A DNA stretch of 64,000 nt from NCBI RefSeq assembly GCF_006716565.1, contig NZ_VFPG01000001.1, positions 2,604,001 to 2,668,000 of the forward strand. Reading direction: 5' to 3'. A model generated the notes under the pieces. That model saw only the letters and a list, made by a program, of their open reading frames with translations. It was not told the DNA's origin and did no database searches. Source of the DNA: Nocardia bhagyanarayanae. GTDB lineage: Bacteria; Actinomycetota; Actinomycetes; Mycobacteriales; Mycobacteriaceae. This document shows, in pieces, positions 7,960-51,256 of this stretch; the first letter of the stretch is position 1; the number at the start of each line of letters is the position of its first letter. The translations under genes were made by a program, and so were the position numbers.

Positions 7960-9183
7960 TCAGCTGTCGCGGTAGTTACGCAATACCAGCACCAAGCACC
8001 CCGCCGCCGCCACCGCGAGCCCGGCGTACATCGAGGGATAACTCCAGCCCACCGTCTGATGCAGGAACGACAACCCCGCGGGCACACCGAATCCCAGGTA
8101 ACTCACCGAGTAGAACACCGCGGTAAGCCCCGCGAGATCATCGGGCCAGGCAATGCGCTCGATCTCCTGCAACCCGGCGACGAGTCCGATCCCGTACCCC
8201 GCACCGAGAACGGCGGCGGTCGTGATGGTCGCGCCGAGGGTGAGCGAACCGGAAGCCCATGTCGCGGAGAGCATTCCGCAAGTGACCAACGAAAGTCCGA
8301 CCGCTGCGGCGCGCGTGGTGCCGGGGCGATCGATGCGCCGAGCCACCGACTGGATGGCGAACCCGCACCCCAGCGTGATGACGGTGATCAACGCCGAGAA
8401 CGCGATGGGCGCGCCACTCACATGCGGCAGCATCAAGGTCGGCATCACCGCGTAAGCCGTTGCCGCCGAGGTGAACAACCACAGCGCGGCGGGCAGGGCG
8501 ATGCGGAGGAAGCGACGGTGACCCGCGGCGGGGATCTTCAGATCGTCGATGAGCCGCTTCGAATCGAGCTGAGTCAGAACAGTTTCCGGCGAACGCGACA
8601 TCCAGGCGGCGGCGAAAACGCACAACGCGGCATTGATCAGGTAGGTGAGCGAGTCGGGCAGCGGCCCCCACTGCGCGAGCGCCCCTGCCACACCCGCGCC
8701 GACGGCGAACCCACCGGTCAAGCTCATCGCCGACCGTCGCGCACCGGTTCCCGCGGGCAGCACCGGCCCGTGCGGCGGCTGCGAAAGTTCCTTGAGCCAG
8801 CTGCTGCCCACCGCCATCGCCAGTCCCAGCGCGATGCCGCACAGCACCCGGCCCGCAGCGAGCGCGGGCACCGAGTCGGAGCCGAATGCCAGCAGCAGGG
8901 ATCCGGCGGCCGCGATCAGCGGCGCGGGCAGCATGAGGCGGCGGCGGCCGTAGCGGTCGGAAAGCGGGCCGCCGATCAGCAGCGCCGGGACGATGCCGAG
9001 GACGTAGTAGAAGAGCAGCAGGTCCACCGTCGTCAGCGGAAGGCCGTGGCTCTTGTACATGACCAGCAGCGGCGTGAACTCGTTGCCGCCCCAGGCGATG
9101 GCGAACACGGCGGCGGCGACGCCCCACCACCGTCTGGTTCCGGTGCGGGCTTCGGCGGGACGTAGGGCGGTGAGGGTCGTCAT
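7960..9183 (-). CDS. MFS transporter
   Basis: A 407-residue major facilitator with about 12 hydrophobic segments. The signature loop GGPLSDRYGRRRLMLPAPLIAA (about 72-93) lies between helices 2 and 3, and a cytosolic central loop (SRSPETVLTQLDSKRLIDDL) separates the two halves. The substrate is unknown; the drug/sugar exporter-like layout suggests efflux. It forms an operon with the upstream GntR regulator: its ATG shares one base with the regulator's TGA (TGATG), so translation is coupled. A GTG three bases earlier would give a four-base overlap. Confidence 0.9.
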   Translation of the reverse strand: MTTLTALRPAEARTGTRRWWGVAAAVFAIAWGGNEFTPLLVMYKSHGLPLTTVDLLLFYYVLGIVPALLIGGPLSDRYGRRRLMLPAPLIAAAGSLLLAFGSDSVPALAAGRVLCGIALGLAMAVGSSWLKELSQPPHGPVLPAGTGARRSAMSLTGGFAVGAGVAGALAQWGPLPDSLTYLINAALCVFAAAWMSRSPETVLTQLDSKRLIDDLKIPAAGHRRFLRIALPAALWLFTSAATAYAVMPTLMLPHVSGAPIAFSALITVITLGCGFAIQSVARRIDRPGTTRAAAVGLSLVTCGMLSATWASGSLTLGATITTAAVLGAGYGIGLVAGLQEIERIAWPDDLAGLTAVFYSVSYLGFGVPAGLSFLHQTVGWSYPSMYAGLAVAAAGCLVLVLRNYRDS

Positions 9184-46210: not shown

Positions 46211-46822
46211 GTGCAAGTTCTGACGCAGACCCCGCAGGCGCCCGCTCCCGCCGCACCCGGTGACGGACGGGGCAGGAGCCTGAGCTACGAGGAGTTCGGC
46301 CGCCGCTTCCTCGAGTACGCCGTGTCCGAAGAGCGCGTCGCCGCCGCGTTCGGCGAACTGACCGGAGCGGCCTTCGACGTCGGCCCGATCCGGGTCGGGC
46401 CCGCCCGGCTGGCCAAGGTCGTCGCCCATGTGCGCCTTGGTATTCCGCGCGTGCACCGTCGCGTCGACGAAGTCATCGATTTCGAACTGGTCCTGCCGTT
46501 GCGTGTCGGCATGCTGGTCGATCTCGGCATCGACCGGCACCGCTTCGAGGTGGACGGCACGGTCCACCTGCATCTCACCGCGCGCACCGCCGAACCGCTC
46601 CGGGTCCTCATCGAGATCGCCGAACCCCGTCAGCGCGACGTCCGCGTCAACGTGGCGGCGGGCACCAAGCGCGCCCAACTCCTGCGCGTCCTCGTCGGCG
46701 TCGACCACGAGATCCGCCGCTTCGTCGCCCGCTACATAGCCACCGAAATCCGCAAACCCCATATCGCCTCGGTACTCGACATCGACGTAGCCACGCGCTT
46801 GGACCAGGCCTGGCGGTTGTAG
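46211..46822 (+). CDS. Conserved hypothetical protein
   Basis: A 203-residue soluble protein from GTG 46211. After a Pro/Ala-rich N-terminus come SYEEFGRRFLEYAVSEERVAAAF, a beta-rich core (FELVLPLRVGMLVDLGIDRHRFEVDGTVHLHLTARTAEPLRVLIEI) and a basic helical end. No catalytic motif is apparent and I do not recognise the family. Same strand as the Z-prenyl synthase, 29 bases after its stop, so co-transcription is likely. Confidence 0.7.
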   Translation: MQVLTQTPQAPAPAAPGDGRGRSLSYEEFGRRFLEYAVSEERVAAAFGELTGAAFDVGPIRVGPARLAKVVAHVRLGIPRVHRRVDEVIDFELVLPLRVGMLVDLGIDRHRFEVDGTVHLHLTARTAEPLRVLIEIAEPRQRDVRVNVAAGTKRAQLLRVLVGVDHEIRRFVARYIATEIRKPHIASVLDIDVATRLDQAWRL

Positions 46823-46833
46823 GGGGGTCTCTG

Positions 46834-47109
46834 TCAGAGGCCTCCGAAGAGATAGGCCAAGAAAACGGTCAGCGCCCACACCCCGCCCGTGAACGCGACT
46901 GCTTCGTCGCGAACACACGGAAACCTGTACCACACCGCGGCCGAAATCAGCGGCGCCGCAAGCGGTACGGTGCGCCAGTTCCACGGGTAGGGGATGAAAG
47001 CGATATCCGGATCGGTGTACAGCAGCATGAACGGATACGCCGCACCGAATGCGGCGAAGATCGTCACCATCCGCCATGGCCGCCAGCCCCCCGCGCCACG
47101 TCGTGGCAT
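46834..47109 (-). CDS. Small membrane protein B, immunity candidate
   Basis: A 91-residue protein with three hydrophobic segments (VTIFAAFGAAYPFMLLY, TVPLAAPLISAAVWY, AVAFTGGVWALTVFLAYLF) and the pattern FIPYPWNWRT. It is a clear paralogue of the gene just upstream (FIPFPWEYRT, AYPFMHVYT, EAVAFTLGMWAL). Its ATG follows that gene's TGA directly, so the two are co-translated. It is last in the operon after a predicted type VII toxin, the usual place for immunity genes. Confidence 0.72.
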   Translation of the reverse strand: MPRRGAGGWRPWRMVTIFAAFGAAYPFMLLYTDPDIAFIPYPWNWRTVPLAAPLISAAVWYRFPCVRDEAVAFTGGVWALTVFLAYLFGGL

Positions 47110-47358
47110 TCAGAAGGTCCCCGTCGCCCAGACGATCATCGCGCTCAGCGCCCACATCCCCAATGTGAAGGCAACAGCCTCGCTCCGCGCCCCGGGAACA
47201 AAACGCCATACCGTCGCGGAGATGAGCAACGCCAGCAGCGGCGCTGTCCGGTACTCCCAAGGGAAGGGTATGAAGCGGTACTCGAGTTGGATTCCGGTGT
47301 ACACATGCATGAATGGATACGCGGCGCAGAACGTGGCCAAGAACGTCAAGGTCCGCAA
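47110..47358 (-). CDS. Small membrane protein A, immunity candidate
   Basis: About 82 residues from a proposed TTG at 47358 (the open frame runs to 47481 but overlaps the toxin gene without membrane-protein character). Three hydrophobic segments with AYPFMHVYTGIQLEYRFIPFPWEYRTAPLL and SEAVAFTLGMWALSAMIVWATG. Paralogue of the next gene by tandem duplication. It begins 37 bases after the toxin stop. The duplication fits selection for immunity against toxin variants, an inference from context. Confidence 0.68.
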   Translation of the reverse strand: MRTLTFLATFCAAYPFMHVYTGIQLEYRFIPFPWEYRTAPLLALLISATVWRFVPGARSEAVAFTLGMWALSAMIVWATGTF

Positions 47359-47395
47359 GAGAGCCCGGCTCCCGCGCCGCCACGTTCGTTCGGCG

Positions 47396-48439
47396 CTACT
47401 CCTTGATGATGACAAGCGTTGTCCCGTCGACGTTGTTGTAGTCCATGTTGTTCGGGTCGACCAGTTTTGCTTCCCGCGCATAGCGAATGCAGGTGTCGAT
47501 TATCGCCTGCCGGTTTCCTTCCAAGCGGATGCCGACTTCACGGCCGGTGTGGTTGTTCCACTCGTCCATTTCCTTCGAGCCGGGTAGCTGGCTCGGTTTG
47601 TCCTTCTCGTGAGCATCGGCGAGTCTCTTGGCGAAGTCGGCATCGGTGGATTCAGTGGTCAGTGCTTGCCAGATGCAGTGACGCGCGGCGTCTTGGCGAG
47701 TCGATTCAGGGTCCCCGGGAAACGCGGCGACGGACTCGAGCTCGGCAATGTCTTTGTCTCGGTTGTTCCGGGAGTTGTTGCAGTCCAGCGGGTTATGCCA
47801 ACAGACGCTCCACTCGTTGTCGCCCAAATCTCGCCAATCCTCGATCTTCTCGCCGACATTGATGTCTTGTGGTTGTCCAGCTGGTGTTTGCCCTGCGACC
47901 GGCAGGCCGGTGAATGCCTTGTTGATCGCCTGCGTGGTAGTTGTGTCCGCGGTATTCGCTTGGGCGATGGCCTGTCTGATCGCGGCGGTTTGTATGTCGG
48001 CGTCGGTCTGCAACGCTCCTATCGCCTTCTGGAGTTGACCGGAATCGCTTACGGTGGCCAGCAGCGTCTGCTGGGCGGCGGACGACGGTGTGCACGTGCC
48101 GTCTTCCGCCACGGTGTAGCCCTTTTCCTCGGCGATCCGCACGGCTGCGGCGAGTGCGGACTGCGCAGCCGCGAGTTCGGTGGCGCCGATGCGCGCGGCC
48201 TCGACGCCCGACTCCAAGGCGTTACGGATCTTTTCGGTATCGGAGTGCAACGTTTCGTATTGCGACCGCATCGCATTGCCCGACTCGCCCTGCCAGGTGT
48301 CGAGCGACCTGTCGACTGCTCGATACTGGGTGTCCAGCGCGCCGGTGAGTTCGTGAGCCTGCTGTGCCCACTGGTCGGCCTGGGCGGCCAGGGCGTCGGG
48401 GCGCAGCGCGAGAATCTGCGACTTTGTCAGCATGTTCAC
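47396..48439 (-). CDS. Predicted type VII-secreted polymorphic toxin
   Basis: A 347-residue protein. Residues 1-180 are a WXG100/LXG-like helical hairpin (WAQQAHELTGALDTQYRAVDRSLDTWQGESGNAM with a WxG turn, then long Ala/Glu/Gln helices). A Pro/Gly linker (GLPVAGQTPAGQPQ) leads to a C-terminal domain (about 215-347) with DIAELESVAAFPGDPESTRQDAARHCIWQAL, DAHEKD and EWNNHTGREVG, a His/Asp/Asn pattern like the DUF6973 domain of putative effectors. Its activity is unknown. GTG 48439 overlaps the EspC-like stop by four bases. Confidence 0.72.
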   Translation of the reverse strand: MNMLTKSQILALRPDALAAQADQWAQQAHELTGALDTQYRAVDRSLDTWQGESGNAMRSQYETLHSDTEKIRNALESGVEAARIGATELAAAQSALAAAVRIAEEKGYTVAEDGTCTPSSAAQQTLLATVSDSGQLQKAIGALQTDADIQTAAIRQAIAQANTADTTTTQAINKAFTGLPVAGQTPAGQPQDINVGEKIEDWRDLGDNEWSVCWHNPLDCNNSRNNRDKDIAELESVAAFPGDPESTRQDAARHCIWQALTTESTDADFAKRLADAHEKDKPSQLPGSKEMDEWNNHTGREVGIRLEGNRQAIIDTCIRYAREAKLVDPNNMDYNNVDGTTLVIIKE

Positions 48440-48753
48440 GGCAGATCCAGACCAATGTCGGCGATGTCGTCGGCGCGATTCGCGTCGCCACTCAGAAACT
48501 GCGTTATCGCGGTGCCGGTGGTGTCGCCGAGGGTCTGCATGCCTGCGGCAGCTCCGAGAACCGCGCGGTCGACCGCGGCGATGGCGCTACCACAGGCACG
48601 GAGCACGCTGGTCGCCGCGAGGCCGTCGGTGACGCCGTCGGCTGGCCGATTGGCCAGGCCCAACCTGCTGATCGTGGACGTCGTGGTGGCGAATGTATCC
48701 GCCAGTCGTCGGACGTCGTCCGGGTCGAAGTGCAATCGCTCGAACGCGCTCAC
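48436..48753 (-). CDS. EspC-like ESX-secretion-associated protein
   Basis: A 105-residue helical protein: FDPDDVRRLADTFATTTSTISRLGLA, then VLRACGSAIAAVDRAVLGAAAGMQTLGDTTGTAITQFLSGDANRADDIADIG. The size and helix-turn-helix hairpin fit the DUF2580/EspC-type partners encoded before ESX substrates. GTG 48753 is chosen over an upstream GTG in the same frame. Coupled by four bases to the toxin gene, so it is probably a co-secreted partner or chaperone. Confidence 0.7.
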   Translation of the reverse strand: MSAFERLHFDPDDVRRLADTFATTTSTISRLGLANRPADGVTDGLAATSVLRACGSAIAAVDRAVLGAAAGMQTLGDTTGTAITQFLSGDANRADDIADIGLDLP

Positions 48754-48828
48754 CGTACCCCCCTGTCGCACACGGTGTTTCGTCGCGACCACTATATCCA
48801 CCGATGTCGTCCGGCGCGATCGTCGTCG

Positions 48829-49824
48829 CTAGCGCGGCCCTCGGTCCCAGTCGTCCCAGGAGTCATAGAGCGGATAGAGGTCGTCATCGCCGGCGAGTTC
48901 GGGGAACAGCGGTTCGAGCCAGTCTGGCATGGCGAGCGGGTTGTTGGTCGCGGAGGCCGAATCGGTTGGCGGACAGAGCGCCGGCGGATCGTTCGTGAGG
49001 TGAGCGCGCGGCGGTGGTGCGGGAAGCCAGTCCGGTTCCGGCGCCGACGTGGTGGCGGGTAGCGGTGCGCGTCGTGGTCGCGGGTGCTGGGGTCTGGCGG
49101 TGAAGTAGTGGTCGTCGTCATCTGGGCCGGCGAATGGCTGAATGACGTGGTGCATCGGATCGTCTTGTGCAGCATCGGTTTCGAGTTCGGCGGTGACACC
49201 GGCGGAGTCGAACCCTGAGTCCGAGCCGGGGTCGGAGCCAGGGCCGAAGCCGGAATTGGAGTCAGGGCCGGCGCTGTAACCGACACTGGTCCGCGGATTG
49301 GATTCGGGATTGGTGTTGGAGCCGTGCGTCGCGAGCGTGTCCGGTCGGGAACCAACCTTGGCGCCCGAGCTGGACAACCGGCCACTGCTGGAGGTGGAAC
49401 CTCGCTCTGCGTCGTTGTCTTTGTCGACGCCGGACCCCGACCGGGAGTTCTCGGCGTCCCTGTGCCGAGCGGGATTCTTGGACGAACCGTCCGCCGTCTC
49501 CGAATCCGCACCCTCGCCCAGGCCGGCGCCGCCACCGGAGCCCGCCGCATCGTCGGCCGACCCGGTTGCGTCGAGTTGCTCGACAGCTTCGCGTACCGCG
49601 TCCGCCGCCCGCGTGAAGGCGAGCTTGTGCAACTCCACCACGACATCGGCCAATCGCCCCGCGGTCAGCGTCGATGAATCGCTCACCGTGATGGCGTGCA
49701 GTACGCCGTTCGCGCCGACCACGACGGTGACCGACCCGTCGGCGGACGAGGCCGTCCCGCGAGCGCGCGCCATGGCGTCTTGCAACCGCTCGATCCGCGC
49801 GGTCGCCGGTCCTTGATCCCCCAC
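48829..49824 (-). CDS. YbaB/EbfC-like protein with long disordered tail
   Basis: A 331-residue protein. Residues 1-95 are a YbaB-like fold (RIERLQDAMARARGTASSADGSVTVVVGANGVLHAITVSDSSTLTAGRLADVVVELHKLAFTRAADAVREAV). Residues 100-290 are Ser/Gly/Asp-rich disorder. The C-terminus has tryptophan-acid motifs (PDWLEPLFPEL, YDSWDDWD). Such YbaB genes open ESX-substrate operons in Nocardia. First gene of the toxin operon; 75 bases separate it from the EspC-like gene. GTG 49824. Confidence 0.75.
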   Translation of the reverse strand: MGDQGPATARIERLQDAMARARGTASSADGSVTVVVGANGVLHAITVSDSSTLTAGRLADVVVELHKLAFTRAADAVREAVEQLDATGSADDAAGSGGGAGLGEGADSETADGSSKNPARHRDAENSRSGSGVDKDNDAERGSTSSSGRLSSSGAKVGSRPDTLATHGSNTNPESNPRTSVGYSAGPDSNSGFGPGSDPGSDSGFDSAGVTAELETDAAQDDPMHHVIQPFAGPDDDDHYFTARPQHPRPRRAPLPATTSAPEPDWLPAPPPRAHLTNDPPALCPPTDSASATNNPLAMPDWLEPLFPELAGDDDLYPLYDSWDDWDRGPR

Positions 49825-50009
49825 GTCACCCCCGGATACCTAATGGGCGCTGCTGGACGAAGTCCGCCTACGGCCCGCACGGCCGGAGTGAATGCGGAGG
49901 TACGCCTCAGCCGAGCCTAGGTGGGAGCCGCCAGGATTGGAATGCGCGTGGACCGAATTGGCGGCTGGGTTACTGTAGGGCGCGACAGGGTTGGAAAGGG
50001 GGGTGGCCG

Positions 50010-50279
50010 ATGGGTCCGAGCAATCACGATGATGCGCACACGCTGGCGGGCGCTTTCGCAGCGGCGGGGTTCCGGGTGGCCGCCGCGGGTCGGCCGCCCG
50101 TCGAGGACATGCCGACCGCGCTACCGGACACCGCGGTGCTGGAATCCTGCGGCGTCGCAGTGGGACTCGTGGATCGCGCGCTGCGGGAGACGGCGGCCCG
50201 GCTGCAACGCTCAGGTGTCGCGAGCTTGCGCGGGGCCGAGGCGGGAGACGACTCATCCCGCTCTCCGTTTTGCTTCTGA
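50010..50279 (+). CDS. Short EspC-like protein, divergent
   Basis: An 89-residue protein sharing the VLxxCGxAxxxVDRAL pattern with the EspC-like protein of the toxin operon (VLESCGVAVGLVDRALRETAARLQ here). It lies head-to-head with that operon, 185 bases between starts. AAAGGGG precedes ATG 50010. Either a second partner or a shortened relict: its N-terminal helix is incomplete and no effector gene follows it. Confidence 0.55.
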   Translation: MGPSNHDDAHTLAGAFAAAGFRVAAAGRPPVEDMPTALPDTAVLESCGVAVGLVDRALRETAARLQRSGVASLRGAEAGDDSSRSPFCF

Positions 50280-50323
50280 GCATCCTCGAGCCGACGCGCT
50301 GAATCCGCTTGTGATCGAAAGGG

Positions 50324-51256
50324 TTACAACTTCCGCAGGCGAAGGCGGTTGATGCTGTGGTCGGCGTCCTTGCGGAGGACGAGGGTGGCGCGGGGGCGGG
50401 TGGGGAGGATGTTCTCGACGAGATTGGGGCGGTTGGTGGAGTTCCAGATCTCTTTGGCCGTGGCGGTCGCCTGCTCGTCGGTGAAGCCCGCGTAGTGGTG
50501 GAAGTGGGCGGCGGGGTCGGCGAAGGCGGTCTCGCGCAAGGTGAGAAACCTTTGCACGTACCAGTTTTCGATGTCCTCGATGCGGGCGTCGACGTAGATG
50601 GAGAAATCGAACAGATCCGAAACCATAAGGCGCGGACCGGTTTGCAGCACATTCAGTCCCTCGACGATGAGAATATCGGGCTGGCGCACGCAGTGGAGTT
50701 TGCCGGGCACGATGTCGTAGGAATTGTGCGAATACACCGGCGCGCACACCTCGGGCGCGCCGGATTTCACCTCGGTGACGAAGCGCAGCAGTTTGCGCCG
50801 GTCGTAGCTCTCCGGAAAACCCTTGCGGTGCATGATGCCGCGGCGGGTGAGCTCGGCCGTGGGATAAAGGAACCCGTCGGTTGTGACCAAATCCACACGC
50901 GGATGGTGATCCCAGCGGGCCAGCAACGCCTGCAGCACACGCGCGGTGGTCGATTTTCCGACCGCGACGCTGCCCGCGACACCGATCACGAACGGCACCT
51001 GCTGGTCCGGATGCGTCTCCCCGAGGAAGGTCGCGGTGGCCGCGAACAGGCGCTGGCGCGCGGCGACCTGCAGGTGGATGAGACGAGCGAGCGGCAGATA
51101 GACCTCCGCGACTTCCTCGAGGTCGATCTGTTCGCCGAGACCACGCAGCCCGATCAGTTCTTCCTCGGTGAGCACCAGTGGAGTCGATTTGCGCAGTGTT
51201 CGCCACTGCTTACGGTCGAATTCCACATAGGGGCTCGGCTCGCTCATTCGTGCCAC
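50324..51256 (-). CDS. coaA: Pantothenate kinase, type I
   Basis: A 310-residue kinase for the first step of coenzyme A synthesis. P-loop [24 protein letters not shown] (about 88-111), pantothenate-site segments [15 protein letters not shown] and [17 protein letters not shown], and the conserved end [27 protein letters not shown]. Nearly colinear with M. tuberculosis CoaA (Rv1092c), including the N-terminal [14 protein letters not shown] 51256 gives the same N-terminal length as that enzyme; ATG 51247 is an alternative. Confidence 0.96.

Follow-up and report, generated by a model that had tools for sequence, protein, structure and literature searches.

Gene organization of the module

A stretch of 64,000 nucleotides from Nocardia bhagyanarayanae (contig NZ_VFPG01000001.1, positions 2,604,001 to 2,668,000), hereafter the window, holds a compact group of genes that resembles a polymorphic-toxin operon served by an actinobacterial type VII secretion (ESX) system. 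Five genes follow one another on the minus strand, encoding a YbaB-like protein, an EspC-like protein, a putative toxin (the toxin hereafter) and a pair of small membrane proteins, MemA and MemB (Table 1). A first-pass annotation had read this order from the letters of the sequence, together with a four-base overlap between the EspC-like and toxin genes and the abutment of the two membrane genes. Each of these features is present: the overlap is GTGA at 48436-48439, and the memA stop codon (47110-47112) is followed directly by the memB ATG at 47109.

Other features of the locus had not been remarked upon. memA and memB are tandem copies, with 52% identity over 79 residues, and a second, divergent EspC-like gene is part of the operon's gene set. 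This gene was found in all four complete module copies examined, and its same-place counterparts are 90%, 67% and 66% identical at loci L037, L035 and L036, respectively. The first EspC-like protein, used as query, matches the L037 copy with an E-value of 1.4e-8. The product of the second gene matched no Pfam family at E <= 0.01 and has no C-terminal [FY]xxx[DE] motif. The start of the first EspC-like gene was placed by comparison with relatives, the reading frame being open from 48801. That of memA is uncertain: three relatives have an ATG that overlaps the toxin end by about 31 nt, the window has ACG at the same position, and the remaining possibilities are TTG at 47415 and ATG at 47481.

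Table 1. Positions of the module's genes and domains in the window (aa, amino acids; TM, transmembrane)
Feature	Positions	Strand	Basis or remark
Second EspC-like gene, 89 aa	50010..50279	+	divergent from the YbaB-like gene
YbaB-like protein of 331 aa with a long low-complexity tail; probable chaperone for export	48829..49824	-	PF02575, E 8.6e-9
EspC-like partner, 105 aa, export-type motif FLSGD near its end	48436..48753	-	PF10824, E 0.0014, below cut-off
GTGA stop/start overlap (4 bases), EspC-like/toxin	48436..48439	-	sequence
Toxin, 347 aa: WXG-type helical N-terminal part and DUF6973 (Min-Wnt-like) C-terminal domain	47396..48439	-	
Toxin residues 3-185, constant N-terminal export part	47885..48433	-	common to related Nocardia loci
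Toxin residues 210-347, DUF6973 / Min-Wnt-like domain	47399..47812	-	Pfam and family alignments
memA, candidate immunity protein, 2-3 TM helices	47110..47415	-	start uncertain, TTG 47415 adopted
memB, 91 aa, candidate immunity protein and tandem copy of memA	46834..47109	-	similarity to memA, TM prediction

A probable export cassette with exchangeable tips

The toxin was searched for in 150 genomes of the genus, the window's own included, and matches at E <= 0.001 were obtained in 86 of them. Many of these cover just residues ~4-182, or just the C-terminal domain. A close full-length toxin (at least 74% identity) occurs in four genomes. A distant one (40%) in genome G134 is accompanied by a different small membrane gene and was kept outside these four; two more close homologues (P0004, P0005) stand outside the comparison of gene contexts. 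From the best matches 29 loci were fetched, two of them near-identical (L020 and L022). The N-terminal part of the toxin is shared by 28 of the 29, and their C-termini fall into 10 groups (BLAST, E 1e-4), one of which, with 13 members, contains an Abhydrolase_8 hydrolase (one member tested). The remaining locus, L012, shares the toxin C-terminus only, carried on an LGFP-repeat protein, and was left out of the 28-locus set. Residues 3-185 recur in three close copies and, at 33-48% identity, at 25 further Nocardia loci, of which 24 bear other C-termini and one (L009) a distant DUF6973 tip. The constant N-terminus and variable C-terminus that the first-pass annotation had suggested looking for are thus found across these loci.

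An EspC-like reading frame accompanies the shared N-terminus at 27 of the 28 related loci, and a YbaB-like one likewise at 27, as counted with iterative profiles that were seeded with the window's own proteins and run on the reading frames of the same loci. At the LGFP locus, without the shared N-terminus, neither was matched. The earlier proposal that the gene order is that of ESX-delivered polymorphic toxins gains support from these counts. The upstream stop and the toxin start overlap by four bases of the form NTGA (ATGA, GTGA or TTGA) at 23 of the 28 loci, which argues that the overlap is not a product of chance; three loci have a TGATG overlap instead and two have no such overlap. Substrate pairs of ESX (T7SSa) systems carry the export motif YxxxD/E. 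A motif [FY]xxx[DE] is located 18-22 residues from the C-terminus in 21 of the 28 EspC-like partners, including that of the window, in which FLSGD has Phe where YxxxD/E has Tyr. As regards the ESX machinery, EccCa was the component searched for, and two matches over the cut-off were found in the genome.

Among the encoded proteins, the YbaB-like one exceeds the cut-off of Pfam YbaB_DNA_bd (35.9 bits against 25.5). The toxin had been described as a WXG/LXG-like helical domain joined to a DUF6973-like C-terminus. The second half of this description stands, with residues 236-322 well over the cut-off of Pfam DUF6973 (PF22322, E 4.1e-15, 55.9 bits against 27); for the first half the WXG100 scores lie below their cut-offs.

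The cassette resembles the ESX-1 sets EspA-EspC-EspD and EspE-EspF-EspH, with EspL, in combining a small EspC-type partner, a longer helical substrate and a YbaB-like chaperone (PMC6319747, PMC6107294). According to the passages of these papers that concern Esp chaperones, EspH binds EspE and is required for secretion of EspE and EspF, and EspL stabilises EspE, EspF and EspH. Both EspH and EspL resemble YbaB, and together with the related EspD they are proposed there as chaperones of EspE/EspF and EspA/EspC. The ESX-1 sets are mycobacterial virulence substrates, whereas the module described here is a stand-alone cassette repeated with interchangeable tips. The simplest reading is that the toxin N-terminus, the EspC-like protein and the YbaB-like protein constitute a free-standing Esp substrate-plus-chaperone set with exchangeable tips. 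Judging by titles and the beginnings of abstracts, no such YbaB/EspC/toxin cassette seems to be described among the matches listed in a literature search.

The DUF6973 domain and its relationship to Wnt

The C-terminal part of a related Nocardia protein, used as query, retrieved 560 relatives (120 of them listed). Carriers of DUF6973 include WXG100, EspA/EspE, LysM and LGFP proteins as well as Rhs-type and signal-peptide-like ones recognized by eye, and this use of the same tip on different carriers is characteristic of polymorphic toxins. The distribution of the domain is patchy: of 396 genomes sampled across the phylum 4 have it, and so does Corynebacterium glutamicum, one of the controls. 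In an alignment of 51 rows D250, R253, H254, W257, H277, E278, D292, N295, N296, G299 and R300 (window numbering) are invariant, and in a 62-protein alignment these same residues plus A251 and M291 are. H254, E278 and D292 are invariant in the 51-, 62- and 22-row alignments alike. The NNxxGR motif reads NNHTGR in the window and NNEVGR in the family consensus, its final Gly and Arg varying once more distant rows are included.

When a 22-row profile of the domain was run against PDB, the structure of a Bacteroides fragilis type VI secretion system (T6SS) effector (9uu0) was matched at E 6.7e-11, and the next six rows, at E 0.13-0.25, are chains of Wnt-3a, Wnt-5a, Wnt-3 and Wnt-7a. The effector has, like the window, a DUF6973-type domain with RHxxW, HE, D and NNxxGR, and differs in being named a T6SS effector. 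In the alignments with the Wnt chains Glu and NNxxGR are kept, Asn replaces Asp and Arg replaces the His of the HE pair; in Wnt-5a FRHxxWN is also present upstream, within a stretch not significant by itself. Pfam wnt (PF00110) was matched at E <= 10 by 36 of 62 DUF6973 proteins, the best at 0.0026, and the matches span the region from HE to NNxxGR (six of ten proteins, with positions shown). Carrier domains aside, no other family among the 25 rows listed matched more than 5 of the 62.

In the main text of Burroughs, Nicastro and Aravind 2025 (PMC12419801), the Lipocone superfamily is defined by His, Glu and Asp on helices 2-4, its SAA-Wnt clade is marked by sNxxGR in helix 4, and its enzymes are predicted to cleave phosphate-linked lipid head groups. 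The clade is further characterized by a cone-shaped fold of helices that includes a fifth helix. Lipocone toxins, Min-Wnt among their families, include proteins with WXG/LXG carriers, and immunity against Lipocone toxins is conferred by TM proteins or lipoproteins. The Min-Wnt family described there is like the module in its His/Glu/Asp set, its NNxxGR and its use as a toxin tip, to which the window's subtype adds four conserved cysteines. The signature residues and the Wnt profile matches, set beside this definition, support the placement of DUF6973 in the Min-Wnt group. The window's C-terminal domain would then be a Min-Wnt member of the Lipocone superfamily, the matching of its residues to helices 2-4 being our own assignment. 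The H-x-x-W, DAHE and NNHTG patterns, which had been singled out as conserved-looking, are borne out by the invariant His, Glu, Asp and Asn in the family alignments, and these agree with the published Lipocone signature. Membership of the superfamily also leads to a specific prediction of the target, which the earlier annotation had left open. In a literature search on prokaryotic Wnt toxins the Lipocone paper was the one relevant match; its main text contains neither 'DUF69' nor 'LGFP', and that of PMC12994826, on Salmonella T6SS lipid effectors, contains no Wnt, TelC or lipid II.

Delivery and immunity could be the same if the Min-Wnt-like domain, instead of acting on a lipid head group, bound or blocked a membrane or envelope protein, much as animal Wnts, which are catalytically dead, bind their receptors. 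Among solved proteins the B. fragilis T6SS effector is the nearest relative, and neither a publication nor a mechanism was located for it in the literature searched. The B. fragilis T6SS toxin Bte1, which might be the solved protein, acts, according to the part of PMC12718326 that describes it, on the periplasmic chaperone pair PpiD-YfgM. We nevertheless consider a binding role unlikely. All 62 aligned DUF6973 proteins have the candidate catalytic His, Glu and Asp. The animal Wnts, called inactive in the main text of PMC12419801, have exchanged the Asp for Asn in the alignments, while keeping the Glu and, in Wnt-5a, FRHxxWN.

A cysteine-bearing subtype

Four conserved cysteines, C213, C220, C255 and C317, mark the DUF6973 subtype of which the window's domain is a member. 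All four are present in 14 of the 15 subtype proteins examined, the window's included, with the last at a varying distance; one protein lacks the last. Cysteine of any kind occurs in 3 of 118 main-branch DUF6973 domains. Besides Nocardia, the named relatives of the subtype are from Streptomyces, Mycobacteroides chelonae, Hoyosella and Phytomonospora, and at four loci (L123, L125, L126 and L127) the N-termini resemble signal peptides by eye. The subtype probably acts outside the cytoplasm, as both the putative disulfides and the apparent Sec export would suggest.

The genome encodes a second DUF6973 protein (G000:C1:1888051-1888329; L060:4896-6131, minus strand) in a frame of about 411 aa. It has the main-branch motif RHMYW without an extra cysteine, and similar matches occur in many Nocardia genomes.

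Membrane genes as candidate immunity genes

MemA has two hydropathy peaks, of 1.45 and 1.67. Genes like memB were detected at E <= 0.01 in 9 of 148 Nocardia genomes, five of them strongly (2.3e-25 or better) and four weakly (0.003-0.008). The five strong genomes are the four with a close full-length toxin and a relative, G012, whose genome gave no toxin match. In G012 the lone memB-like gene sits between the uppS side and coaA (L075:1060-1305; coaA 99.7% identical), with an intact frame and a plausible start of its own. A linked immunity-type gene in the four close-toxin genomes and an orphan copy in G012 are the arrangement expected of a polymorphic toxin.

A small open reading frame (ORF) with at least two predicted TM stretches lies just downstream of 8 of 11 genes of the window's C-terminal subtype, compared with 15 of 210 control genes and none of 8 toxins that carry a hydrolase tip on the same N-terminus. 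Four closely related copies (window, L035, L118 and L119) push up the rate for the subtype, and the window counts as positive on account of memB, memA having only one stretch over the cut-off of the script. The scripted test left out L127, a longer protein with the domain in its N-terminal part, and L128, with a disrupted frame. No multi-TM ORF was seen at either on inspection, and counting both as misses gives 8 of 13. The linkage to small membrane genes proposed at first therefore holds for 4 of 4 close-toxin genomes and for 8 of 11 subtype genes, and fails at several subtype loci. Decay of memA and memB was considered and rejected, as both reading frames are intact and the rough pairwise dN/dS among six memA/memB-type copies is 0.12-0.45. 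From the linkage, the duplication and the orphan copy we infer that MemA and MemB are candidate immunity proteins. The main text of PMC12419801 mentions a '4-TM core' protein, to which the MemA/MemB family might be equivalent.

MemA and MemB could instead be membrane helpers for secretion of the toxin. They are predicted membrane proteins encoded in close packing behind it, and two other tips borne by the same N-terminus (L039, L042) likewise have membrane genes after them, an observation that at the same time tells against the immunity assignment. We deem a helper role very unlikely. The same export cassette does without such genes when it bears hydrolase tips, strong memB-like genes are confined to 5 of 148 genomes, and G012 keeps one copy in a genome with no toxin match. 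At L121, moreover, an LGFP protein with the same tip has no EspC-like or YbaB-like matches at its locus and is followed by a small multi-TM ORF.

The module might also be an ESX effector aimed at eukaryotes such as amoebae and macrophages rather than at bacteria, with membrane genes that help export or protect the producer only incidentally. The ESX-1 substrates EspA/EspC and EspE/EspF and their chaperones are tied to virulence in the papers cited above, as far as the passages used here go, and a linked immunity candidate is absent from part of the domain family. On the other hand, the difference in downstream membrane genes between the subtype and the hydrolase tips on the same export part, the orphan immunity-type gene in a close relative and the many interchangeable tips per N-terminus, which are the usual pattern of interbacterial conflict, make a eukaryotic target decidedly unlikely.

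Mobility of the module

The module moves, and it occupies two different places in the chromosome. One is the interval between uppS and coaA, as in the window (46211-50324) and in G071. In G026 it adjoins rpsN, and in G114 it is embedded in a longer run of other genes that separates rpsN from rpsH. In a survey of 30 of 147 coaA matches, covering 1.5 kb beyond coaA, the module was found in the window and G071 and the immunity-type gene alone in G012; at the other 27 loci no module gene lies within 1.5 kb and uppS is near coaA. The two close modules by rpsN, together with these 27 loci, identify the uppS/coaA site as an insertion site. A functional partnership with uppS in polyprenyl synthesis was dropped, two of the four close modules being elsewhere, by rpsN. 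In Mycobacterium tuberculosis the equivalent interval holds PE and PE_PGRS genes, whose products are ESX substrates too.

In G026 the module is enclosed by direct repeats with a spacing of about 3545 bp (L036:4914-5101 and 8461-8646), which agree at 95% identity over 42 nt and at 92% over 147 nt. What they duplicate is the 3' end of rpsN together with the hairpin that follows; a third copy of this hairpin, 76% identical, stands further on. The repeats look as though the module had integrated at the end of rpsN. Another pair of helical proteins, of 99 aa and 446 aa, is encoded near the module in the same genome by genes with a 4-base overlap (L036:1834-3470) and suggests an ESX effector cluster there. 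In G114 a degraded second toxin 3' end is located behind the immunity gene (L035:6871-7004) and may be a leftover tip or a duplication. No recombinase gene was noticed inside the module, although no search was aimed at recombinases. An origin from a plasmid or phage was dropped, the region 46800-50320 having no near match in the plasmid collection and the C-terminal domain none in phage records.

Discussion

Based on these observations, we propose that the locus constitutes a transferable module of the polymorphic-toxin kind, and that its toxin is delivered by an actinobacterial type VII (ESX) system; to this overall class of mechanism we assign a probability of about 70%. How would such a module work? 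The YbaB-like protein would act as a dedicated cytosolic chaperone, while the EspC-like protein would pair with the WXG-type N-terminus of the toxin and supply the export motif, so that the pair could leave the cell via ESX. The exported DUF6973 domain would be a soluble, probably disulfide-stabilised helical enzyme, whose conserved His/Glu/Asp/Asn set may, by homology, cut a phosphate-linked head group from a lipid. The likeliest target would be a polyprenyl-linked cell-wall precursor such as lipid II at the outer face of the target membrane. MemA and MemB would stand guard at that membrane as immunity proteins of the producer and its kin.

The specific substrate, lipid II or another polyprenyl-linked lipid carrier, is suggested by analogy with TelC, and we give it slightly less than an even chance. 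TelC of Streptococcus intermedius, a lipid II phosphatase with the immunity protein TipC, is described in the main text of PMC12419801 and is likewise a Lipocone toxin exported by a type VII system (T7SS) and acting outside the cell. It differs in having an LXG carrier of the Bacillota T7SS and in belonging to another Lipocone family, and its likeness to DUF6973 is claimed as a functional analogy only.

A number of observations pull in the other direction. The EspC-like protein stays below the cut-off of T7SS_ESX_EspC (PF10824; 18.8-19.4 bits against 23.5, E 0.0014-0.0023), for which reason it is named EspC-like only, and three of five genuine EspC-like proteins matched Pfam at E <= 0.01. The toxin is just under the cut-off of the Pfam WXG100 model (26.0 bits against 27.3) and reaches 32.6 bits against 44.85 with that of NCBIfam, the E-value being 6.7e-8, and the YbaB-like ORFs of two relatives matched nothing in Pfam. 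Across the four close copies the C-terminus varies little, its identity to that of the window being 72-82%. The link to Wnt emerges from profiles of the family, and their E-values are weak: the window's domain alone, run against PDB, found neither Wnt nor the T6SS effector, and 4 of 10 DUF6973 proteins scanned singly do not match Pfam wnt, as opposed to 6 that do. The window and its close copies retain the Arg of NNxxGR, which several other members of the subtype lack (L038/L120, L122-L126), and the name DUF6973 was not found in the literature searched. No small multi-TM ORF lies downstream at three Streptomyces loci, the Phytomonospora locus and the disrupted N. bovistercoris locus, and no obvious immunity gene adjoins the second DUF6973 gene of the genome.

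What is new in these findings? T7SS toxins with Lipocone tips are already known, as TelC, or predicted in general terms (PMC12419801, main text). Within the literature searched, the link of DUF6973 to Min-Wnt appears to be new, and so do the cysteine-bearing subtype, its putative family of small membrane immunity proteins, one of them orphaned, and the compact YbaB/EspC/WXG cassette, whose tips are exchangeable. Read at their boldest, they would mean that actinobacterial ESX systems wage antibacterial warfare by means of a Wnt-homologous, disulfide-stabilised lipid head-group hydrolase, that the Esp set is at root a general delivery cassette for toxin tips, and that the toxin/immunity unit moves between chromosomal sites as an element of about 3.5 kb. 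We hold this combined reading tentatively, its odds falling a little short of even.

Should the proposed mechanism be right, DUF6973 would be given a fold class and an active site, along with a class of substrates that can be tested. Virulence is the subject of the ESX papers examined; a compact toxin, a candidate immunity gene and a toxin-less sister genome would make a role of ESX in bacterial competition testable. The cassette also suggests a possible origin for the mycobacterial EspA/C/D and EspE/F/H sets.

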